A stretch of 47,151 nt of DNA from Rhodospirillales bacterium (GTDB lineage Bacteria; Pseudomonadota; Alphaproteobacteria; Acetobacterales; Acetobacteraceae): the NCBI GenBank assembly GCA_028869595.1, contig JAGWRU010000209.1:1-47151 (forward strand), written 5' to 3'. Position numbers and translations under genes: made by a program. Position 1 is the stretch's first letter. Each line of letters begins with the position of its first letter. The notes below the pieces were generated by a model. The model ran no database searches, was not told where the DNA came from, and saw nothing but the letters and a program-made list of their open reading frames with translations. This document shows positions 3,584 through 46,995 of the stretch, piece after piece.

Positions 3584-3685
3584 TCGGCGCCGAAGGTCAC
3601 GCCGGCCGTTCCCGGCAGCGCCTCCGCTTGGCCTCGCCGCCAAGCCCTGGCATGCTTCGCGATGAAACCGATCCAGGGGATACCG

Positions 3686-4009
3686 ATGGCGGAAGCAGGC
3701 TGGGTGCGCGTCGCGGCGGCAGCCGATATTCCCGAGGGAGAGGTGCGCGCGATGCGCCTGGGCGAGCGGGAAATCGCCCTCTACCACCTGCCCGGCGGCG
3801 AATTCTGCGCCAGCGACAATATCTGCACCCATGAATACGCCCAGCTTTCCGATGGCTGGCTGGAAGATGGCTGCATCGAATGCCCGCTGCATGCCGGGCG
3901 CTTCGACGTGCGCACCGGCAAGGGCCAGGGCGCGCCGATCGACAAGGACCTGGAGGTCTTCGAGACCCGGCTGGAGGGCGGCGACATCCATATCCGCCTG
4001 CCCGGCTGA
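3686..4009 (+). CDS. Rieske-type [2Fe-2S] ferredoxin
   Basis: This 107-residue soluble protein has the Rieske cluster motif C-T-H at about residues 46-48 and C-P-L-H about 18 residues later, ligating a 2Fe-2S cluster by two Cys and two His. Its size and lack of a membrane anchor match the stand-alone ferredoxins that feed electrons to ring-hydroxylating dioxygenases. An in-frame ATG lies at 3662, but AGGGGA 5 bases before 3686 decides for the later start. The next gene, an amidohydrolase, begins 3 bp after the stop. No oxygenase alpha subunit or reductase is present in the window, so its electron partner is unknown. Confidence 0.85.
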   Translation: MAEAGWVRVAAAADIPEGEVRAMRLGEREIALYHLPGGEFCASDNICTHEYAQLSDGWLEDGCIECPLHAGRFDVRTGKGQGAPIDKDLEVFETRLEGGDIHIRLPG

Positions 4010-4012
4010 GCC

Positions 4013-5077
4013 ATGCCACAGGACACGCCGGTCGATTGCGACCTTCACCCGAGCGTGCCCGGGCTTGCCGCGCTGCTGCCCTATCTCGACCCGTTGTGGC
4101 GCGAGGCGGTGGAACGGCGCGGCCTGGATGAGCCGGTGTCCATCGGCTACCCCTCGCGCGCGCCGCTGACCGTGCGCCCCGACTGGCGCGACGAAAAGGG
4201 CCGCCCGGCCAGCGATGTCGCGCGTTTCACCCGCGAAGCGCTGGACCCGTTCGGCACCGGCATTGCCATCTGCAACTGCCTGTACGGCGTGCAATTGCTG
4301 TTCGGCGAGGATATGGCCGCCGCCATGGCGCGCGCGGTCAATACCTGGATGGCGCGGGAATGGCTGGATCGCGATCCGCGCCTGCGCGCCTCCATCGTCG
4401 TGCCGGTGCAGAATGCCGAGATGGCGGCAGCCGAGATCGAGCATTGGGCGGCGGATAAGCGCTTCGTGCAGGTGCTGCTGCTGGTCTCCGGCGATGCGCC
4501 GCTGGGCAAGCGCCAGCACTGGCCGATCTATGCCGCCGCCGAGCGGCACGGCCTGCCGCTGGGCATTCATGCCGGCAGTTCCTATCGCCATCCCTCCACC
4601 CCGGTCGGCTGGGGCACCACGCTGACCGAGGACTACGTCAATCAGGCGCAGGCCTTCCAATCGGCGCTGACCAGCCTGGTGGCGGAAGGGGTGTTTTCCC
4701 GCTTTCCCGCGCTGGGCGTGGTGCTGATGGAATCGGGCGTGTCCTGGCTGCCCGCCTTTCTGTGGCGCCTGACCAAATTCTGGAAAGGCCTGCGCAGCGA
4801 AGTGCCCTGGGTGTCGGAGCCGCCGACCGAGCTGGTGCGCAGCCGCGTCCGCCTGACCTTGCAGCCTTTCGACGGCCCGCCCGATACGGCCGGGGTGATG
4901 CGCCTGATGGACCATATCGGGTCGGACGAGATGCTGCTATTCTCCACCGACTATCCGCATTGGCAGTTCGACGGCAGCGACGCCGTGCCGGCCGGGCTGG
5001 ATGCGGGGCTGCTGCGCAAGATGCAGATCGAGAATCCCCGCCGCACCTACCCGCGCCTGGAGGAAACCGTCCCATGA
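4013..5077 (+). CDS. Amidohydrolase-2 family metal-dependent hydrolase/decarboxylase (paralog A)
   Basis: This 354-residue TIM-barrel protein belongs to the amidohydrolase-2 superfamily branch, which includes ACMSD and related decarboxylases and hydrolases. The N-terminal metal motif reads VDCDLHP (D-x-H rather than the usual H-x-H). Other family blocks are GIHAG (metal His), the VLMESGVSWLP strand and FSTDYPHWQFD near the C-terminus, which carries the catalytic Asp. It is followed by a paralog with the same motif order, overlapping in an ATGA. A Rieske ferredoxin precedes it by 3 bp. This suggests ring or side-chain cleavage of an organic substrate, but the substrate cannot be named from sequence. 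Confidence 0.82.
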   Translation: MPQDTPVDCDLHPSVPGLAALLPYLDPLWREAVERRGLDEPVSIGYPSRAPLTVRPDWRDEKGRPASDVARFTREALDPFGTGIAICNCLYGVQLLFGEDMAAAMARAVNTWMAREWLDRDPRLRASIVVPVQNAEMAAAEIEHWAADKRFVQVLLLVSGDAPLGKRQHWPIYAAAERHGLPLGIHAGSSYRHPSTPVGWGTTLTEDYVNQAQAFQSALTSLVAEGVFSRFPALGVVLMESGVSWLPAFLWRLTKFWKGLRSEVPWVSEPPTELVRSRVRLTLQPFDGPPDTAGVMRLMDHIGSDEMLLFSTDYPHWQFDGSDAVPAGLDAGLLRKMQIENPRRTYPRLEETVP

Positions 5078-6186
5078 ACATCGCCCTGCGCCCCGATGCC
5101 CCGGAACAGCCGCTTCCGCTCAGCCGGCTGGCCATCGCCGATTGCGACATCCATCCCCGCCTGCCGGGGTTCAAGACGCTGTATCCCTGGCTGTCCAAGC
5201 GCTGGCAGGAGCATCTGGAAGTCTTCGGCATGGCCCATCGCCAGCCATTCGAGAAAGGCCCGGCCTATCCCAAGGCGCAGCCGCTGGCCTGCCGGCGCGA
5301 TGCCTGGCCGCCGGGCGGCACGCCGGGCAGCGATCTGGGCTTCATGGCGACGCAGCATCTCGATGCCAACAATGTCGCGCTGGGTATTCTCAACCCGCTG
5401 ACGCCGAGCGGCGAGGGCGCGCAGAACCCCGCTTTGTCGGCGGCGGTGACGCATGCCACCAATGAATGGCAGGTCGAACACTGGACGGCGAAGGATAGCC
5501 GGCTGCGCGCCTCCATCGTGGTGCCGTACGAGGATGGGCCGGCGGCGGCGGCGGAAATCCGGGCCCGCGCCGGCGATCCGAATTTCGCGCAAGTATTGCT
5601 GCTGACCCGTACGGCGGAACCGTTGGGCCAGCGCCGCTACTGGCCGATCTACGAGGCGGCGCAGGAAGCGGGACTGCCGGTCGGCATCCATGCCTTCGGC
5701 TATGGCGGCGCGCCGATCACCGTCGGCGGCTGGCCGTCCTATTATATCGAGGAGATGGTCGGTCACGCCCAGTGCTGTCAGGCCGTGCTGACCAGCCTGG
5801 TGCTGGAAGGCGTGTTCGAGCGGTTTCCGAAGCTGAAAGTGGTGCTGATCGAGGCCGGCATCGCCTGGGCGCCGGCGTTGTCCTGGCGGCTGGATAAGCA
5901 TTTCCTGCGCCTGCGCCAGGAGCTTCCCGATTTGAAGCGCCTGCCGTCGGAATATATCCGCGATCACGTCTGGTGGACCACCCAGCCGATCGAGGAGCCG
6001 GAGCCGCGCCGCCATCTGGGCGAGGTATTCGACTGGATGGGCTGGGACCGCGTGCTGTTCGCCACCGATTATCCGCACTGGGATTTCGACGATCCCGCCC
6101 ATGCTTTGCCGATGCGCATGAGCGAGGCGCAGAAGCGCGCCATCTTCCTGGAGAATGCGCGCGCCGTGTATGGCATCGCCGGATAG
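5074..6186 (+). CDS. Amidohydrolase-2 family metal-dependent hydrolase/decarboxylase (paralog B)
   Basis: This 370-residue paralog of the preceding gene shares its motif order: ADCDIHPRLPG at the N-terminus, GIHAFG, VLIEAGIAWAP and FATDYPHWDFDDP near the C-terminus. It should act in the same cytosolic pathway, possibly as the other subunit of a heteromer. The start at 5074 overlaps the paralog A stop (ATGA). The frame is open further upstream, but those codons lie inside paralog A. Paralog B lacks the SSYRHPS segment after the central His of A (it has YGGAPIT), so the two may differ in specificity. Confidence 0.82.
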   Translation: MNIALRPDAPEQPLPLSRLAIADCDIHPRLPGFKTLYPWLSKRWQEHLEVFGMAHRQPFEKGPAYPKAQPLACRRDAWPPGGTPGSDLGFMATQHLDANNVALGILNPLTPSGEGAQNPALSAAVTHATNEWQVEHWTAKDSRLRASIVVPYEDGPAAAAEIRARAGDPNFAQVLLLTRTAEPLGQRRYWPIYEAAQEAGLPVGIHAFGYGGAPITVGGWPSYYIEEMVGHAQCCQAVLTSLVLEGVFERFPKLKVVLIEAGIAWAPALSWRLDKHFLRLRQELPDLKRLPSEYIRDHVWWTTQPIEEPEPRRHLGEVFDWMGWDRVLFATDYPHWDFDDPAHALPMRMSEAQKRAIFLENARAVYGIAG

Positions 6187-6247
6187 CAAGCCGGGTTGAC
6201 GAAAACGCGCTGGCCCGGCGCAGGGCGCGGCGCTACACCGCTTGGCC

Positions 6248-7390
6248 ATGGACATTGTCAGCATCGCGCCTTCCCGCATCGTCGAAATCGGCCTGCTGGC
6301 ATTCGCCACGCCCGATGTCGATTATCTGTGCTTCGGCGAATCCGATCAGCCCAGCCCGGCCAGCGCGCGAGAGGCGGCGAAGGCGGCGATCGATGCCGGC
6401 ATCACCCGCTATGCCGATGTCCGCGGCCTGCCCGAATTGCGCGAGGCTATCGCCACCTATCTAAGCGGCATTCATCGCCAACCGGTGGCCGAGGAGCGTA
6501 TCCAGCTTGCCGCATCGGGCATGGCGGCAATCGGCATCGCCATGTCGGCGATCCTTCGCGCCGGCGACCGGGTGGTGCTGCACAGCCCGGCCTGGCCGAA
6601 TGTCGCCAACGCGGTGCGGCTGCGCGGCGCGGTGGTCGAAGAACTCGGTCTGGATGCGCTGCCCGATGGGCGGTTTCGCCTCGACCTCGACCGGCTGGCG
6701 GCGATGCTGCCCGGCGCGCGCGCCTTCGTGCTGAATTCGCCGAACAACCCGACCGGCTGGACCGCGACGGCGGCGGAGCTGGCGGCAATCCTCGATCTGT
6801 GCCGCCGGCACGGGGTGTGGCTGATCTCCGATGAGGTCTATTCGCGGCTGGTCTATGACGGCAGCGAGGCGGCCCCCTCCATCCTGGATATCGCCACGCC
6901 CGAGGATCGGGTGATGGTGGCCAACAGTTTTTCCAAGACCTGGGTGATGACCGGCTGGCGGCTGGGCTGGCTGGTGGTGCCGGCGGGGCTGCGTCCGGCG
7001 ATCAGCGCGATCGTCGAAGTGACCCATTCGTCCGTCGCGCCGTTCATCCAGAAGGCCGGCGTGGCGGCGATTGCCGATACCGAGGTGGTGGCGCGCTTCC
7101 GTGCCCATTGCGCCGCCGGACGCGCGCTGGTGAGCGAGGCTTTGGCCGGGCTGAACGGTGTGCGCTACACTGCCCCGGTGGGCGCGTTCTATGCCTTCGT
7201 GGGCATTGACGGGCTCACCGACAGTTTCGCGCTGGCCAGCCGGCTGGTGACCGAGCATCGCGTGGCGGTGGCCCCGGGCATCGCCTTCGGCGCGGCGGGC
7301 GAGGGGCATCTGCGCATCTGCTTCGCGCAGGAAGCGCCGCGCATGGCGCGCGCGGTGGACCGGCTGCGCGCGGCGCTGGCGGAGGGGTAG
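6248..7390 (+). CDS. Class I/II PLP-dependent aminotransferase
   Basis: This 380-residue aspartate-aminotransferase-fold enzyme transfers an amino group from an amino acid to a 2-oxo acid in the cytosol. It shows the NSPNNPTGW block, SDEVYSRLVYDG (Asp and Tyr contacting PLP), NSFSKTWVMTGWRLGW with the Schiff-base Lys, and the C-terminal LRICFAQE with the substrate carboxylate-binding Arg. The ATG at 6248 is preferred over a TTG two codons earlier. It lies 61 bp after the amidohydrolase pair on the same strand, so it may be co-transcribed. The neighbouring LacI-type regulator is convergent. Exact specificity is not deducible. Confidence 0.85.
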   Translation: MDIVSIAPSRIVEIGLLAFATPDVDYLCFGESDQPSPASAREAAKAAIDAGITRYADVRGLPELREAIATYLSGIHRQPVAEERIQLAASGMAAIGIAMSAILRAGDRVVLHSPAWPNVANAVRLRGAVVEELGLDALPDGRFRLDLDRLAAMLPGARAFVLNSPNNPTGWTATAAELAAILDLCRRHGVWLISDEVYSRLVYDGSEAAPSILDIATPEDRVMVANSFSKTWVMTGWRLGWLVVPAGLRPAISAIVEVTHSSVAPFIQKAGVAAIADTEVVARFRAHCAAGRALVSEALAGLNGVRYTAPVGAFYAFVGIDGLTDSFALASRLVTEHRVAVAPGIAFGAAGEGHLRICFAQEAPRMARAVDRLRAALAEG

Positions 7391-7400
7391 GCGAGGCGGA

Positions 7401-8426
7401 TCAGCGCACCGGCACGCTCGATCCGCGCAGGATGAGCGGGCCGCGCAAGGCGACGGTTTCATCCGGCAGCGCGGTGTCGCGCATGCGCGCCTGCAACAGA
7501 TCCAGAGCGCGTTCGATCATGGTTGGCAGCGGCTGGCGGATCGTGGTGAGGTCGTAGGCCGGGCGCGCGGCCTCGGCGATGTCATCGAACCCGACCACGG
7601 ACATATCCTGCCCGACGCGCACGCCGCCGAGACGCAGGGCGTCCAGCACCCCGAGCGCCATGATGTCGCTGACAGCGAAAACCGCGTCGGGGCGGTGCTG
7701 CGGTGCCATTTCCATCATCTGCCGCCCGGCCGCAAATCCGCCGTCATAGGTGGACTGCCCATCAAGGCGCAGCACCGGGCTCCATCCAAACTGATCGAGA
7801 TGGCGGATGAAGCCCTGCTCGCGTTCCTGGCCGGTCGAGGAGGAGGTGGAAGTGCGCACGAGCGCGATGCGCCGATGCCCGGCGCGCAGCAGTAAATCCG
7901 CAAGCTGTGTGGCGCCGTGGACATTATCGCACGTAACAGCGCTGGAATTCAGGCGTGCGACACGATTGACCATGACTACGGGAACGTTGTTAGCGGCACA
8001 TACCACGCCGACACGCGACGGCAACTCGACCGACGTGATCAAGCAGCCATCCACTTGGTATTGCAGCAGGGCATCTGCGGTTTTGTCTTCCACAGGTCCG
8101 GCGCCGGCATGGATGATCAGCATACGCATCCCGCGCTCGCCGATCTGGCGCACGGCTTCATAGAGCAGCGCGGTGTAGAAAGGGTTTTGTGAAGGGCCGA
8201 GGACGACGCCGATCAGCCCGCTGCGTCCGGAGGAAAGCGTCCTGGCGGATGCGTGCGGGGTATAGTTCATCTCTTTAGCGAGCAGGGCGATACGCGCGCG
8301 CATTTCCGGTGAAATCCGCGTATCGCCTTTCAACGCCCGGCTGACGGTCGAGGGGGCGACATTGGCGGCGCGGGACAGTGTGACGATGGTGGCACGTCGG
8401 TCGGCGGGCGGATCGGACTGGCGCAT
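7401..8426 (-). CDS. LacI-family transcriptional regulator
   Basis: This 341-residue regulator has an N-terminal helix-turn-helix (VTLSRAANVAPSTVSRALKG, about residues 13-32), the hinge region NYTPHASARTLSSGRS, and a periplasmic-binding-protein-like effector domain ending in VALRGPLILRGSSVPVR. It is divergent from the flavin monooxygenase operon. Two LacI-type palindromes lie in the shared gap, so it most likely controls that operon in response to its substrate. The start at 8426 fits the family. Upstream codons are open in frame but would extend the protein past the promoter with unconserved residues. The proposed -10 ends 6 bases before this ATG, suggesting a leaderless message. Confidence 0.88.
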   Translation of the reverse strand: MRQSDPPADRRATIVTLSRAANVAPSTVSRALKGDTRISPEMRARIALLAKEMNYTPHASARTLSSGRSGLIGVVLGPSQNPFYTALLYEAVRQIGERGMRMLIIHAGAGPVEDKTADALLQYQVDGCLITSVELPSRVGVVCAANNVPVVMVNRVARLNSSAVTCDNVHGATQLADLLLRAGHRRIALVRTSTSSSTGQEREQGFIRHLDQFGWSPVLRLDGQSTYDGGFAAGRQMMEMAPQHRPDAVFAVSDIMALGVLDALRLGGVRVGQDMSVVGFDDIAEAARPAYDLTTIRQPLPTMIERALDLLQARMRDTALPDETVALRGPLILRGSSVPVR

Positions 8427-8432
8427 CGGTTT

Positions 8433-8460
8433 AGTATAGCAGCCTGTAGGATCATGTAAG
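8433..8460 (-). promoter_or_regulatory. Possible promoter of the lacI-type gene
   Basis: Read on the minus strand, CTTACA (8460-8455) and TATACT (8438-8433) are separated by 16 bp. TATACT is a strong -10 match. Transcription would begin at or within two bases of the ATG at 8426. Operator 1 lies just upstream of the -35. Confidence 0.45.
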
Positions 8461-8465
8461 CGGGA

Positions 8466-8483
8466 TGCGCAAACATTTGCGCA
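8466..8483. promoter_or_regulatory. LacI-type operator 1
   Basis: TGCGCAAACATTTGCGCA has perfect 8-bp inverted arms (TGCGCAAA / TTTGCGCA) around a CA centre, the usual size and composition for a LacI/GalR-family site. It lies between the regulator and the monooxygenase operon, just upstream of the regulator's -35. Its centre is about 119 bp from operator 2. Confidence 0.7.
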
Positions 8484-8541
8484 AATTATTGCGGCGCAGC
8501 GTAAAATAAGACGCTGACATTTCCGCATTCGTAAAAATTCC

Positions 8542-8571
8542 TTGACTCTGGGCTTTTATTTTTCGCATACA
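8542..8571 (+). promoter_or_regulatory. Promoter of the flavin monooxygenase operon
   Basis: TTGACT at 8542-8547 and CATACA at 8566-8571 have an 18-bp spacer inside an AT-rich stretch. The predicted start of transcription falls near 8578, a few bases before operator 2, which would let a bound LacI-type protein block initiation. Confidence 0.5.
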
Positions 8572-8584
8572 TCGCGCAAGGAAA

Positions 8585-8600
8585 TGCGCAAACGTTTGTC
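8585..8600. promoter_or_regulatory. LacI-type operator 2
   Basis: TGCGCAAACGTTTGTC contains the perfect palindrome CAAACGTTTG (8589-8598) with the central CG typical of LacI/GalR operators. It shares the TGCGCAAAC half with operator 1. It sits just downstream of the proposed -10, as expected for a repressor site. Confidence 0.7.
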
Positions 8601-8641
8601 TTAACGGCATGCGGCGCGGCAAAAATCGAGGAGGAGCGCCG

Positions 8642-10021
8642 ATGGCCGGCACGACGCGCGACATGAAAATGGTGGGGTTTCTGCAGGCGCAGAACTGCTC
8701 CATCGCGCCGGGTTCCTGGCGTCATCCCGCCGGTGCCGTCGACTTCACGACACCGGAATATTTCCAGCGCCTGGGCCGGGTGATGGAAGAAGCGAAATTC
8801 CACCTCGCCTTCTTCGACGACCGCCTTGCGCTGCCCGACATCTTCAACAGCGATTATCGCGATGCGGTGGCGAACGGCGTGCGTGTGGTAAAAATGGATC
8901 CGGTCTCCATCATCACGATGATCGGTGCCGTGACGACGCGCCTCGGCCTCGGCATCACCTATTCGACGACGTATTACGAGCCGTTTCACGTCGCTCGCCT
9001 CTTCGCCACGCTCGATCTGATGACCAAGGGACGGGCTGCCTGGAACGTCGTGACGTCGCTGAATAATTCCGAGGCGGAGAATTTTGGTCGAACCGAACAC
9101 CTGGCGCATGACCTGCGCTACGACCGTGCCGACGAATTCATGGAAGTGGTGCTCGGTCTTTGGGGCAGTTGGGAAGACGATGCACTGATCGTCGATAAGA
9201 CGACCGGAAGATTTGCCGATCCCGATAAAGTGCATGCCCTGAACCATCGGGGAAAATACTTCGCGTCCAAGGGGCCGTTGCCCGTACCGCGCTCTCCACA
9301 AGGCCATCCGGTGCTGATCCAGGCGGGTCAGAGCGGGCGAGGCCGCAGCTTTGCCGGACGCTGGGGAGAAGTGATCTTTGTCGTCTACCCCAATCTCGCC
9401 GCTGGAAAAAAGCAATATTCCGACGTGAAGGCAGCAGTCGCGGCGGCAGGACGAAATCCTGACGATGTGGCGATCTGCCCAGCCTGTTACGTGTGCGTGG
9501 CCGACAGCCAGGCCGCGGCGGAAGAGAAACGGGAATATATTCGCAACCTGGCAAAGCCCATCGACGCGGTCGTCCTACTTTCCGAAGCGCTGAATTTCGA
9601 CTTCGGCAGCAAGGACATGGACAGCGAATTCACCGATGACGAATTGCGCCGCCTATCCTGGAGCGGCTTTCGCGAGCGCGTCGTTTCCTTAAGTGGCAAG
9701 CCCAATCCAACCGTGCGCGATTTCGTGCACTACTCAGGACGCGGCACGATCGGCGAATTTCCCATCTTCTGCGGCACGCCCCATGCAGTTGCTGATCAGA
9801 TGGAAGAATGGTTCACCGCCCGAGCCTGCGACGGGTTCGTGCTTGCCGCGACGCACACCCCCGGTGCGTTCGAGGATTTTGCCCGGTATGTGGTACCAGA
9901 ACTACAAAGGCGTGGCCTATATCATCGCGATTACGCAGGCACGACGCTGCGCGAAAATCTGGGCTTGAAACGCCCTTCAGCCAGTGATTGGCGCGTGCCG
10001 CATCTGCGCGAAGTATCCTGA
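8642..10021 (+). CDS. NtaA/SnaA/DszA-family FMN-dependent monooxygenase
   Basis: This 459-residue luciferase-like monooxygenase uses FMNH2 supplied by a separate reductase and oxygen to oxidise a small organic substrate. The N-terminal MVGFLQAQNCS block, TTRLGLGITYSTTYYEPFHVARLFATLD-like barrel strands, GRAAWNVVTS, the RYDRADEF motif and QAGQSGRGRSFAGRWGE are characteristic of the nitrilotriacetate/dibenzothiophene-sulfone monooxygenase group. GAGGAGGAG at 8628-8636, 5 bases before the ATG at 8642, fixes the start. An ATG at 8609 in the same frame lacks such a site. The next gene, 1 bp away, encodes the flavin reductase. Substrate unknown. Confidence 0.88.
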   Translation: MAGTTRDMKMVGFLQAQNCSIAPGSWRHPAGAVDFTTPEYFQRLGRVMEEAKFHLAFFDDRLALPDIFNSDYRDAVANGVRVVKMDPVSIITMIGAVTTRLGLGITYSTTYYEPFHVARLFATLDLMTKGRAAWNVVTSLNNSEAENFGRTEHLAHDLRYDRADEFMEVVLGLWGSWEDDALIVDKTTGRFADPDKVHALNHRGKYFASKGPLPVPRSPQGHPVLIQAGQSGRGRSFAGRWGEVIFVVYPNLAAGKKQYSDVKAAVAAAGRNPDDVAICPACYVCVADSQAAAEEKREYIRNLAKPIDAVVLLSEALNFDFGSKDMDSEFTDDELRRLSWSGFRERVVSLSGKPNPTVRDFVHYSGRGTIGEFPIFCGTPHAVADQMEEWFTARACDGFVLAATHTPGAFEDFARYVVPELQRRGLYHRDYAGTTLRENLGLKRPSASDWRVPHLREVS

Positions 10022-10022
10022 G

Positions 10023-10526
10023 ATGGCGCCGTTGGAAGGCATCGATCCAACGGAATTCCGTGCCTGTATGGCCTTGGTTCCGAACGCTGTCGCCATCATT
10101 ACCTGCGGAACCCCCGGTGCGCGAACCGGGCTCACGGCAACCGCACTTTGCTCGCTGACCGATATGCCGCCCATGCTGCTTGCATGTGTGAATGCCAACG
10201 CCAGCGCACACGCGGTCATTCGCAGCACGGGCTGCTTTGCGGCGAATATCGTTGCCGACCGGCACACTGAACTGGCGCAGCGCTTTGCAGGCCGCACCGG
10301 CATCGATGGAGAGCAGCGCTTTACGTACTCTGGGTGGGCAGCCCTGAAAACCGGTGCACCAGTTCTAGATGGTGCAATCGCTAGCTTCGATTGTGTTCTG
10401 GAAGCCGAGCATCGGCACGCGAGCCATTCCATCTTCATCGGCCGCGTCGTGGCGGCGGTGCAATGCTCCGAGGCAGAACCGCTGCTGTATCGCAACGGGC
10501 AATTCGGATGCTTCGCAGCTTCGTGA
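10023..10526 (+). CDS. Flavin reductase-like (FMN-binding split barrel) protein
   Basis: This 167-residue protein of the flavin-reductase-like domain family (HpaC/NtaB/RutF type) reduces FMN with NAD(P)H for the adjacent monooxygenase. Family features visible are VAIITCGTPGARTGLTAT, SLTDMPPMLLACVN, the GCFAANIV block and a final DCVLEAEH / FIGRVVA strand pair. The start at 10023 is one base after the monooxygenase stop. An earlier in-frame start (9984) would overlap that gene by about 38 bases. Together with the preceding gene it forms a classical two-component monooxygenase. Confidence 0.85.
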   Translation: MAPLEGIDPTEFRACMALVPNAVAIITCGTPGARTGLTATALCSLTDMPPMLLACVNANASAHAVIRSTGCFAANIVADRHTELAQRFAGRTGIDGEQRFTYSGWAALKTGAPVLDGAIASFDCVLEAEHRHASHSIFIGRVVAAVQCSEAEPLLYRNGQFGCFAAS

Positions 10527-10542
10527 CAGGAGAAAAAAGACC

Positions 10543-11904
10543 TTGAACGAATATCGCATGCTCTCGACCAGCGGCATTCTCGGGTACGGATATGCCGAGG
10601 AATCGTTACGTATCGGCATGAGCTGGAACCCGCACGTCATCGGCTGCGATGGCGGCAGTACCGATCCAGGACCGTACTATCTGGGATCAGGAAAGTCCTT
10701 CACATCCCGCCTTTCGGTGAAGCGCGATCTACGCCTGATGCTGCAAGCCGCAGTTGCAGCGAAGATCCCCTGCATCATCGGCACGTCGGGCGGTTCCGGA
10801 GGAGAGCCGCATTTGCAGGATACCGCAGCCCTGGTGCGCGAAATCGCCCGCGAAGACGGACTGAGTTTCCCGATGGCTTTGATCCATTCGGAGCAAGATA
10901 AGGCCTCGTTGATCGCGCGCGTCGAACGCGGTGCCACCCGTCCGCTGGCGAAGCTTCCGCCTCTCGATCGCGCGACGATCGAACGGGCGGAGCGTATCGT
11001 CGGTATGATGGGGCCAGAGCCGATTGCACGCGCACTCGATCAGGGCGCGCAGGTTATTCTGGCAGGTCGGAGCAGCGATCCCGCGCAATGGGCGGCGCCG
11101 GCGATGCGTGCGGGCATGCCGGCGGCACCCTCGTGGTACGCTGGAAAAATGTTGGAATGCGGGGCAGAGCCGTCGGTTCCCAAGGAGCCAGACAATATTT
11201 TCGTCTGGGTGCGCGATGATCATATCGTCTGCGAGCCCCCCAATCCGATCCGTCGCTCGACGCCGCTGGCCGTGGCAAATTTCGCGCTGCATGAAAACAG
11301 TAGCCCAATCCATCATACGGAGCCGGGCGGTTTGCTGGATACCAGTGAATGCAGGTTCGAGGCGATCAGCGATCGCTCGGTCAAAATCAGCGGCATGACG
11401 TGGCTGGATGCCGCCGAATACACCATCAAGCTGGAGGGCGTGGAGCGTGCGGGCTATCGCACGATCACCATCTGCGGCACGCGCGATCCGGTTCTGATTG
11501 GCCAGATCGACGATTATCTGTCTGTCCACCGAGAGAAAGTAGCTGCCAAGGCGGCGTCTTTCGGCGTACCGCCGTCGGATTATACGATGGTAGTGCGCAC
11601 CTACGGCAAAGACGGCGTGATGGCGGGATGGGAACCGGAAAGGACGATCCGCGCGCACGAGCTGGGCTTTATCATCGAGGTCGTCGGTAAAACACAGGAC
11701 ATCGCCAACGCGGTGCTGGCGATGGCCCGCACGTCGATGCTGCATGCCGATTTTCCCGGGCGTCTATGCCGGGAAGGAAACATGGCGTTCCCCTTCAGCC
11801 CCTCGGATATCGAGATGGGACCACTGTTTCGCTTCAGTATTTTCCATGTCGTGACACCGAATGATCCCTTTGAAATGTTTCCAATCGAACACGAGGCGGT
11901 GTGA
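10543..11904 (+). CDS. AtuA-like (acyclic terpene utilization, DUF1446) protein
   Basis: This 453-residue protein belongs to the DUF1446/AtuA family, named for a gene needed for citronellol/geraniol degradation in Pseudomonas; its biochemical role is still unclear. Conserved blocks are LSTSGILGYGYAEES at the N-terminus, DGGSTDPGPYYLGSG, GTSGGSGGEPHL, LAGRSSDPAQWA and the C-terminal VRTYGKDGVMAGWEP. The start is read as TTG at 10543: it gives the family's N-terminus, and ACAGGAG lies 10 bases upstream. The first ATG at 10558 would drop five residues. The DUF4387 protein that follows 4 bp later is often the C-terminal part or partner of this family. Confidence 0.82.
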   Translation: MNEYRMLSTSGILGYGYAEESLRIGMSWNPHVIGCDGGSTDPGPYYLGSGKSFTSRLSVKRDLRLMLQAAVAAKIPCIIGTSGGSGGEPHLQDTAALVREIAREDGLSFPMALIHSEQDKASLIARVERGATRPLAKLPPLDRATIERAERIVGMMGPEPIARALDQGAQVILAGRSSDPAQWAAPAMRAGMPAAPSWYAGKMLECGAEPSVPKEPDNIFVWVRDDHIVCEPPNPIRRSTPLAVANFALHENSSPIHHTEPGGLLDTSECRFEAISDRSVKISGMTWLDAAEYTIKLEGVERAGYRTITICGTRDPVLIGQIDDYLSVHREKVAAKAASFGVPPSDYTMVVRTYGKDGVMAGWEPERTIRAHELGFIIEVVGKTQDIANAVLAMARTSMLHADFPGRLCREGNMAFPFSPSDIEMGPLFRFSIFHVVTPNDPFEMFPIEHEAV

Positions 11905-11908
11905 TCCG

Positions 11909-12235
11909 ATGGCCCGTATCCGCGATATCGCACAAGTCTGCAAAAGCAAGAATGCCGGCCCATTCATGGTGACGATCGACGTCCTTTTTGAAGATCACGA
12001 CCTTTATCGGCAGGTGAAGGCAACCGGCGTTCTGAACGCTGGATTGTTCGCCCGCCTTTATGGCGTGAATGAAGCGGATGTTTTGTTCACTCCATACGAC
12101 ACCGCCGCAGCATTCAAAGCCACGCTGCCGCGGCTGGTACCGGCTGGCGATATCGGTGACACCGATGTGTATGGCGCACAGCAGCATGCGCCGCTCCTGG
12201 ATGTCGAAGTGCCGGTAAATCTCCAGCCGCGCTGA
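11909..12235 (+). CDS. DUF4387 domain protein, partner of the AtuA-like protein
   Basis: This 108-residue protein matches DUF4387 by its start (ARIRDIAQVCKSKNAGPFMVT), IDVLFEDHDLYRQV, and the DTDVYGAQQHAPLLDVEVP end. The family has no assigned function and usually accompanies AtuA-like proteins, either fused or adjacent, so it is probably a small subunit of the same enzyme. It starts 4 bp after the AtuA-like gene and is followed by a 70-bp gap to the transporter gene. Confidence 0.8.
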   Translation: MARIRDIAQVCKSKNAGPFMVTIDVLFEDHDLYRQVKATGVLNAGLFARLYGVNEADVLFTPYDTAAAFKATLPRLVPAGDIGDTDVYGAQQHAPLLDVEVPVNLQPR

Positions 12236-12305
12236 AGCGTTCGTCTGCTCTGCGTCAACAAACAAATACGAACAGGCCGGAAAGGCCAAAACCGGAGGAA
12301 AATTC

Positions 12306-13655
12306 ATGGATGCGATGACGACATCGATCGGCCGCAGGTTGGATAGCCTGCCGCAGAGCGGATTTCATCGACGCATGCTGTTCCTGATCGGTGCAGGAAT
12401 GTTCTTCGATGGCTTCGACATTTATCTGGCAGCAACAGTGCTGGGTGCGCTTGTCCGAAACGGCATGTCGTCGGTTGCAACCAATGCCTGGTTTATTTCT
12501 GCAACCTTCGCCGGCATGACTGTCGGGGCATGGATGTCGGGCATTCTGGGCGATCGCCTGGGCCGGCGGTTTTCCTATCAGTTCAATCTCGCGATTTTCG
12601 GCGCCGCATCGCTGTGCGCGGCATTTGCCCCGAGCATCCAGTGGCTGACTGGTCTGCGCTTTGTCATGGGGCTTGGGCTGGGCGCAGAGATCGTGGTCGG
12701 ATATGGCACATTGGCCGAATTCATGCCGCCTGCGTTGCGTGGACGGTATGCAGCGCTGTTGAATTTCTTTACCAACTCGGCGCTGATGGTGGCGACTTTC
12801 GGTGGATTTCTGATCATTCCCTATCTCGGTTGGCGCTGGATGTTCGTCATTGCGGGAATCGGTGCCGGCATCGTCTGGCTGTTGCGTAAAAATATGCCCG
12901 AATCACCGCGTTGGCTGGAATCGAAAGGGCGTATCGCGGAAGCCGATGCCGTCACGCGCGATATCGAGCAGGAAGTATATGGCGGCCAGACCGTATCGCC
13001 TGCCGTGCCCTTCGCCAATTCGGTGCCTTTGTCGCAACCGCAGCGCGGCTCGCTTGGGGAGCTGTTCAAGGGGCGCATGCTGGCGCGCACATTTACTGGA
13101 ATCGTCATCAACGTGATCAATAACCTGATCACGCACGGATTCATCATCTGGATGCCGAGCTTCTTCATCGCGCAAGGCCTGACCGTTACGCGATCGCTGG
13201 GATTCACGGCGGTGATGACGCTGGGTGCGCCGGTTGGCTCCTTGCTTGGTTATGTGTTTGCCGAGAGTCTGGGGCGTAAACGCGGCACAGTGGTATTTTC
13301 CTTCGTCGCCTTTGCCTTGGGATTGCTGTATCCGCATGCTCATACGCCAGTTGCCATCATGTCGCTCGGCTTCTGTATGGTGGCGGTGATCTTCCTGCTT
13401 GGGGCGTTGAGCATCTCGGCCTATGTGCCGGAGCTTTTTCCGACCGAGATTCGTCTACGTGGCGTTGGGCTGTGCAGTACGGCGGGGCGGCTTGCGAATA
13501 TCGGAATTCCCTTTCTGGTTGCGGCACTTTACGGGTTCGGCGGCATTTCCGCCGTTCTGTCGCTGATTTCCGCAGGGTTGCTGGTGCAGGGTCTGGTCGT
13601 TGGCTTCGTCGGGATCGAGACGCGGGGTCTCGCGCTGGAAGATGTGAACGCATAG
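12306..13655 (+). CDS. MFS transporter, sugar-porter/aromatic acid symporter type
   Basis: This 449-residue inner-membrane carrier has about 12 transmembrane helices. It shows the TM1 motif FFDGFDIYLAA with the charged DGFD typical of organic-acid symporters, the TM2-3 loop GDRLGRRFS, the ESPRWLESKGR block after TM6 and PELFPTEIRLRGVG before TM11. It probably imports the substrate of the flavin monooxygenase operon. The start is supported by GGAGGAAAA about 6 bases before the ATG. It is the last gene of the run, and a weak hairpin follows its stop. Which organic acid or sugar it carries is not visible. Confidence 0.88.
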   Translation: MDAMTTSIGRRLDSLPQSGFHRRMLFLIGAGMFFDGFDIYLAATVLGALVRNGMSSVATNAWFISATFAGMTVGAWMSGILGDRLGRRFSYQFNLAIFGAASLCAAFAPSIQWLTGLRFVMGLGLGAEIVVGYGTLAEFMPPALRGRYAALLNFFTNSALMVATFGGFLIIPYLGWRWMFVIAGIGAGIVWLLRKNMPESPRWLESKGRIAEADAVTRDIEQEVYGGQTVSPAVPFANSVPLSQPQRGSLGELFKGRMLARTFTGIVINVINNLITHGFIIWMPSFFIAQGLTVTRSLGFTAVMTLGAPVGSLLGYVFAESLGRKRGTVVFSFVAFALGLLYPHAHTPVAIMSLGFCMVAVIFLLGALSISAYVPELFPTEIRLRGVGLCSTAGRLANIGIPFLVAALYGFGGISAVLSLISAGLLVQGLVVGFVGIETRGLALEDVNA

Positions 13656-13761: not shown

Positions 13762-14133
13762 ATGAGCAGCGAGCAGGCCGACGATCTGCGCCTCCCCCTT
13801 CCCACGACAGCCGCTCTGCCCACCATCCTGCGCGAGGCTGCCACGCGTCTTCCTTTCGCGGCTGTTTCTCCCGCTCCTCGATCCGGGGATACGGTCGATC
13901 TCGTCGCGCTGCTGGCTGCCGGGCGGGACGCGCCCGATCTCGCGCGGCTCGGCCCCGCCTTGGCCGCGGCCCTCGTGCCGCTGCGCGGGGCGGGCGGGAA
14001 TGCCGCGGATCAGGCCGCGGCAGGCGCGGCGCTGGCGGAGGCGCGGCTCGGCCCCCCCGATCTGGTCCGGCCCGATCCGGCGCGATCCCAAACGATCGCG
14101 GAAGCGTGTTCCCGCCGGCCGTCAGGCTCTTGA
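13762..14133 (+). CDS. Hypothetical 123-residue Ala/Leu-rich protein, doubtful
   Basis: I do not recognise this protein. It is rich in Ala, Leu, Pro and Arg with no membrane segment or motif. Codon third positions are mostly G or C, as in real genes of this genome, and it fills an otherwise empty gap on the same strand as its neighbours. No clear ribosome-binding site precedes the ATG, and other long frames overlap it on both strands. It may be a chance frame in GC-rich DNA. If it is not real, 13656-14203 is empty apart from the weak hairpin at 13661-13694 and the promoter upstream of 14204. Confidence 0.35.
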   Translation: MSSEQADDLRLPLPTTAALPTILREAATRLPFAAVSPAPRSGDTVDLVALLAAGRDAPDLARLGPALAAALVPLRGAGGNAADQAAAGAALAEARLGPPDLVRPDPARSQTIAEACSRRPSGS

Positions 14134-46931: not shown

Positions 46932-46995
46932 ATGGAAATCACCGGTCATGGAAATCACCGGTCATGGAAATCACCGGTCATGGAAATCACCGGTC
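46932..46995. repeat. Four tandem copies of a 16-bp repeat
   Basis: The unit ATGGAAATCACCGGTC is repeated four times without change, starting at 46932, 46948, 46964 and 46980. Each unit contains the palindrome ACCGGT. The last copy runs directly into the 5' arm of the hairpin at 46990-47025. The array lies in the gap between tam and the convergent glycine-zipper gene. Confidence 0.95.

Follow-up and report, generated by a model that had tools for sequence, protein, structure and literature searches.

The operon and its operators

Analysis of contig JAGWRU010000209.1 of a Rhodospirillales bacterium (Acetobacteraceae, assembly GCA_028869595.1), whose 47,151 nucleotides are referred to here as the window, revealed a compact plus-strand operon at 8642-13655 encoding a flavin-dependent monooxygenase, a flavin reductase, an AtuA-like protein, a DUF4387 protein and a carrier of the major facilitator superfamily (MFS) (Table 1). 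Profile matches bore out the presence and order of all these genes, as given in a preliminary description of the interval 8427-13655 made from the sequence alone. The divergent LacI-type regulator named there is also present and faces the operon, although it lies outside that interval, touching it only at the start of its gene. The open reading frame of the regulator extends up to 8528, but a start at this position is unlikely because operator O1 would then fall within the gene, and the start at 8426 was preferred. In a similar way, the frame of the flavin reductase is open from a GTG at 9984, and its start is probably the ATG at 10023, directly past the stop of the monooxygenase gene. The AtuA-like and DUF4387 genes are separated by 4 bp. 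The carrier matched PF00083 and PF07690, its best NCBIfam subfamily being that of aromatic acid/H+ symport (TIGR00895, below its cut-off), and carriers 69-75% identical to it were found in three related clusters (L076, L084 and L085).

Table 1. Coordinates of the operon genes and predicted operators in the window
Feature	Position	Strand	Evidence
LacI-family repressor, divergent from the operon	7401-8426	-	Peripla_BP_3 1.5e-30; LacI helix-turn-helix 9.4e-10
Predicted operator O1, palindrome GCGCAAACATTTGCGC	8467-8482		Recurs in relatives
Predicted operator O2, imperfect, GCGCAAACGTTTGTCT	8586-8601		119 bp from O1
NtaA/DmoA-family monooxygenase dependent on flavin mononucleotide (FMN), sister to DszA	8642-10021	+	TIGR03860 1.2e-149; PDB DszA 5tlc 1.9e-122; tree
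Flavin reductase, predicted supplier of reduced FMN (FMNH2)	10023-10526	+	PF01613 5.5e-36; RutF-like 4.9e-38, below cut-off
CmlA-type large subunit (annotated AtuA/DUF1446)	10558-11904	+	PDB 9erq_A 6.3e-110; AlphaFold2 model vs 9evf_A, template modelling (TM) score 0.93
CmlB-type small subunit (DUF4387)	11909-12235	+	PDB 9erq_B 1.9e-21; AlphaFold2 model vs 9evf_B, TM 0.81
MFS carrier, organic/aromatic acid symporter-like	12306-13655	+	PF00083 1.9e-40; TIGR00895 8e-47, below cut-off

The palindrome GCGCAAACGTTTGCGC, or a match to at least 12 of its 16 positions, was detected upstream of the monooxygenase gene in 25 of 26 regions, most of them chosen for their facing LacI gene; among mononucleotide-shuffled regions the proportion was 1.9%. 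The window itself contains four matches where 0.28 would be expected. The operon thus presents both a divergent LacI gene and conserved, palindromic predicted operators in the intergenic region. The distance from O1 (8467) to O2 (8586) is the same in Methylobacterium (L076) and in L040/L087, and amounts to 120-121, 131-134 or 142-143 bp in other relatives. Two operators placed 119 bp apart suggest that a repression loop could be formed. Helical phasing of the spacings (119-121, 131-134 and 142-143 bp) is suggestive only, with p about 0.014 against uniform spacings in a few, related sequences and a best period above 11 bp.

The AtuA-like/DUF4387 pair

The AtuA-like protein matched chain A of PDB entry 9ERQ end to end (residues 2-439), and the DUF4387 protein, which matched PF14330 with 113 bits and retains the SKNAGP and YGAQQHAP motifs, corresponded to chain B. 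These chains were named citramalate lyase CmlA and CmlB by their depositors, and entry 9EVF bears the title "citramalate lyase - ADP - pyruvate complex". AlphaFold2 models of both proteins (predicted local distance difference test scores of 90.6 and 87.0, respectively) recovered chains A and B of 9EVF in structure searches, and no other structure fell below E = 0.001 with either predicted fold. These matches support the proposal, already made in the preliminary description, that both proteins form a two-subunit enzyme, here of the CmlAB-type lyase family and with a predicted activity; the statement that DUF4387 has no function is in turn outdated, as this is the type of protein that forms the CmlB subunit in a citramalate lyase of solved structure. 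By analogy with 9EVF, the bound ADP suggests that a nucleotide takes part in the reaction; the formation of an acyl phosphate as its role would be speculation.

A role in acyclic terpene degradation, to which the AtuA name had been tied, is disfavoured and appears very improbable. The window protein did match PF07287, the AtuA model, but only partially (53.6 bits, residues 61-203, positions 65-207 of 437), in contrast to the end-to-end match to 9ERQ; the protein resembles CmlA far more closely than it does this Pfam model, which makes the link a weak one. Bona fide PF07287 proteins are encoded by two separate genes elsewhere in the same genome (505.8 and 446.7 bits), and neither a full-length PF07287 match nor other Atu-type genes were found for the AtuA-like protein and its operon.

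The genomic context of more distant pairs was informative about the name given to the lyase. In Escherichia coli O157 Sakai, a pair of 456 and 105 residues, the same lengths as the 9ERQ chains and highly similar to them though not identical, sits in a cluster with glutamate mutase, methylaspartate ammonia-lyase and fumarase D. A 2015 paper considered it unclear what becomes of (S)-citramalate in this strain, and noted the DUF1446 gene (PMC4682846). E. coli O157, Salmonella and Vallitalea have pairs homologous to that of the window in glmS-glmL-glmE-mal clusters, and in a member of the window's own family (L075, G122 C23, about 5231-10300) the S, E and L genes for glutamate mutase lie beside a distant pair. 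Plasmids of Klebsiella and Neorhizobium carry the pair together with a fumarate-hydratase gene. The presence of such pairs in glutamate mutase clusters fits the cleavage of (S)-citramalate, and this context supports the name of citramalate lyase. In the Sakai sequence (NC_002695, L035), ECs_0759 and ECs_0760 (DUF4387 and AtuA-like) are annotated as "acyl-CoA synthetase" and "3-methylaspartate ammonia-lyase"; their homology suggests that both annotations are wrong and that the pair is the enzyme for citramalate cleavage that was missing from that cluster.

In a tree of 117 AtuA-like proteins, supported branches part the E. coli-type from the monooxygenase-linked proteins. Both groups have 78 alignment columns in common at which the residue is invariant or almost invariant, 31 of these being polar, so that the window pair likely shares its chemistry with the E. 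coli-type pair.

The monooxygenase-linked branch

The monooxygenase scored 498.7 bits with TIGR03860 (curated cut-off, 279.7), and its closest solved relative is DszA, over 444 residues. AtuA-linked monooxygenases constitute a single subfamily, sister to DszA in the tree, and within the family, on our reading of the neighbourhoods, nearly all the enzymes at least 63% identical are encoded beside an AtuA gene, with one clear exception (G167). Further paralogues, at 55-64% identity, are not beside an AtuA gene; in some genomes, unlinked paralogues adjoin CaiB, CitE, MmgE or TctC genes, a context that fits acids but is not specific. The genome of the window contains four additional NtaA/DmoA-family monooxygenase genes (G000 contigs C177, C59, C33 and C220); the stretch read around the C220 gene, a 56% identical paralogue, contains no AtuA gene.

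Neighbourhoods were counted among relatives whose AtuA gene is flanked by 2.2 kb or more on either side. Because these relatives had been gathered for their similarity to the window protein, the counts describe its kin rather than bacteria at large, and related genomes do not count as independent cases. DUF4387 adjoins the AtuA gene in 103 of 104 relatives. The co-occurrence that the preliminary description had put forward as a check was found: all 30 relatives with at least 70% AtuA identity keep both DUF4387 and the monooxygenase. The latter was also found near AtuA in 22 of 30 relatives at 60-70% identity, in 14 of 27 at 53-60%, and in none of the 17 below 53%. On the AtuA tree, the linkage requires 8 changes, compared with 35.8 when shuffled. 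Given these counts and the conserved operators, the gene set is more than a chance association; chance clustering was rejected on the counts. An anti-phage role was considered too, and no PADLOC match was obtained.

The linked group spans Acetobacteraceae, Acidocellaceae, Rhizobiaceae, rhodobacterial genera, Methylobacterium and Burkholderiales, with variations in gene order that include monooxygenase-TctC-AtuA-DUF4387 with LacI, AtuA-DUF4387-monooxygenase with CitE and CaiB, and monooxygenase-AtuA-DUF4387 with a branched-chain-type ATP-binding cassette (ABC) transporter and MmgE/PrpD. Transporters are swapped between clusters (MFS, TctC receptor, TRAP and branched-chain-type ABC), and the types exchanged fit organic acids. 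Linked clusters also contain CaiB coenzyme A (CoA)-transferase genes and CitE-like lyase genes, for which the best model is RipC of the itaconate pathway (below its cut-off); both could provide an alternative means of cutting such acids. The search for a substrate through neighbouring genes yielded classes only (organic acid transporters, lactonase-like, CitE/CaiB, MmgE/PrpD) and no single compound. One cluster (L182, G221 C10) carries two AtuA/DUF4387 pairs together with the monooxygenase, MmgE/PrpD, a TctC receptor and a putative PrpF-type isomerase. In another (L151, 3731-4861), the flavin reductase and an IclR-type effector-binding domain (PF01614) form a single fusion protein, with homologues in Burkholderiales clusters (L077, L078, L146, L147 and L153-L155); this is perhaps a ligand-controlled reductase.

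Two alternatives concern the reaction of the monooxygenase. According to the first, an N- or S-substituted carboxylate would have its C-N or C-S bond broken by the NtaA/DszA-type enzyme, and the lyase would take the acid released. The TIGR03860 assignment and the PDB neighbours, which include enzymes for nitrilotriacetate, ethylenediaminetetraacetate, dimethyl sulfide and dibenzothiophene sulfone, are in line with this, as is the best match of the MmgE/PrpD proteins of Burkholderiales clusters, iminodisuccinate epimerase. However, the similarity to the epimerase is remote, at 125 bits over 468 residues, and cis-aconitate decarboxylase comes close to it; no recurring sulfur or amine genes appeared among the clusters examined, so we regard this route as unlikely. 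The second, a Baeyer-Villiger-type oxygenation giving a lactone or ester that a hydrolase encoded elsewhere would open before the lyase cuts the hydroxy acid, seems quite unlikely: lactonase-like hydrolases of the metallo-beta-lactamase (MBL) fold and fuconolactonase-like amidohydrolases do recur near linked clusters, but they score far below the cut-offs of the named families, the window operon contains no lactonase, and none of the closest PDB relatives listed has an established activity of this type.

The operon also differs from its surroundings in guanine-plus-cytosine (GC) content, with 58.7% in 8427-13655 compared with 69.2% in the window outside 7401-13655, and third-position GC, which is about 0.83-0.85 in two upstream genes, falls to 0.62-0.70. 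This shift suggests that the operon was probably acquired horizontally. An exact 18-nt direct repeat lies on either side of the low-GC island (7368-7385 and 14024-14041), probably by coincidence, as both copies encode similar Ala-Leu-Ala-Glu stretches. Elsewhere in the window, a Rieske ferredoxin gene followed by two amidohydrolase-2 genes (3662-6186, normal GC), just upstream of an aminotransferase gene, forms a separate cluster, and at 46932-46990 a 16-bp unit, ATGGAAATCACCGGTC, is repeated in a short tandem array.

A candidate pathway and its relation to known systems

Taken together, these data make it reasonably probable that the operon is a horizontally acquired module for a small organic acid. 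Bound to both operators, LacI would repress it until an inducer arrives, the MFS carrier would bring in the acid, and the reductase and the DszA-sister monooxygenase would carry out its FMNH2-dependent oxygenation. The CmlAB-type nucleotide-dependent pair would then cut a C-C bond of a 2-hydroxy-carboxylate, such as citramalate or a 2-hydroxy-2-alkyl analogue, releasing pyruvate or another 2-oxo acid, along with an acetate-type fragment, for use in central metabolism.

Several points weigh against this proposal. The window AtuA-like protein is 43% identical to that of E. coli and belongs to a separate clade, outside that of the methylaspartate-cluster proteins, with 15 positions fixed differently between the E. 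coli-type and monooxygenase-linked groups, G29, G32, Y194, K209, H245, N247 and E406 being among these group-specific positions. In addition, many relatives have no flavin reductase adjoining the monooxygenase, no known route was found from this class of monooxygenase to citramalate, and the literature search returned no paper describing 9ERQ or 9EVF, so the lyase activity rests on the titles of the deposits. Nor did it return any paper on DUF4387, any joining citramalate with AtuA or AtuA with luciferase-like monooxygenases, or any relevant one on "AtuA family protein".

The separate clade at this level of identity also means that the substrate of the window pair may differ from, and need not be, citramalate. 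That the pair is a true citramalate lyase, with the monooxygenase turning a C5 or adduct substrate into citramalate or mesaconate for it in the catabolism of branched C5-dicarboxylates, seems improbable to us: both subunits are homologous to 9ERQ/9EVF in sequence and fold, and the CitE-like genes of linked clusters score best with RipC, but the clade has its own group-specific positions, and no mesaconase or fumarase was found in the window operon or in linked clusters, unlike the contexts of E. coli, Klebsiella and Neorhizobium. A more ambitious version of the organic-acid module, which we put forward tentatively, would be a widespread, undescribed aerobic pathway. In it, the two-component flavin monooxygenase would turn an acid from the environment into a tertiary 2-hydroxy acid, to be cut directly by a CmlAB-type lyase of new specificity that depends on a nucleotide but not on CoA. 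Such CoA-free cleavage of an acyl compound, if true, would be mechanistically interesting.

In conclusion, the preliminary description was partly supported. The function of the AtuA-like/DUF4387 pair had already been named, whereas its monooxygenase-linked branch is new here; in the literature searched, neither the substrate nor the combined pathway is described, and no characterised orthologous cluster containing the monooxygenase was found. We estimate, without a count, that thousands of genomes carry the labels "AtuA" and "DUF4387" on these genes. Placement in the citramalate lyase family, together with the tie of one branch to a flavin monooxygenase across many proteobacteria, gives a formerly unknown pair a testable reaction class, and a defined operon is now available for finding the substrate.

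Among the clusters compared, that of plasmid pMaq22A_2p of Methylobacterium aquaticum (Maq22A_RS32195-32155) shares with the window, in an identical order, LacI, monooxygenase, reductase, AtuA (84%), DUF4387 (89%) and a carrier, as well as the operator spacing of 119 bp, but has an MHS-type carrier and an MBL hydrolase inserted ahead of the MFS carrier that matches the window's. The methylaspartate cluster of E. coli O157 (ECs_0757-0764) has the homologous pair in common with the window; there it adjoins a carboxylate transporter, and the route runs via methylaspartate and mesaconase, without an oxygenase. With CmlA/CmlB themselves, the window pair shares both subunits, gene adjacency, fold, and the glycine-rich, SKNAGP and YGAQQHAP motifs, and differs in its clade and in adjoining a flavin monooxygenase and reductase instead of methylaspartate enzymes. 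Finally, the monooxygenase belongs to the same TIGR03860 family as the dibenzothiophene-sulfone monooxygenase DszA and the NtaA/DmoA enzymes, but the linked enzymes form a subfamily of their own, and that of the window has no adjoining desulfurisation genes.

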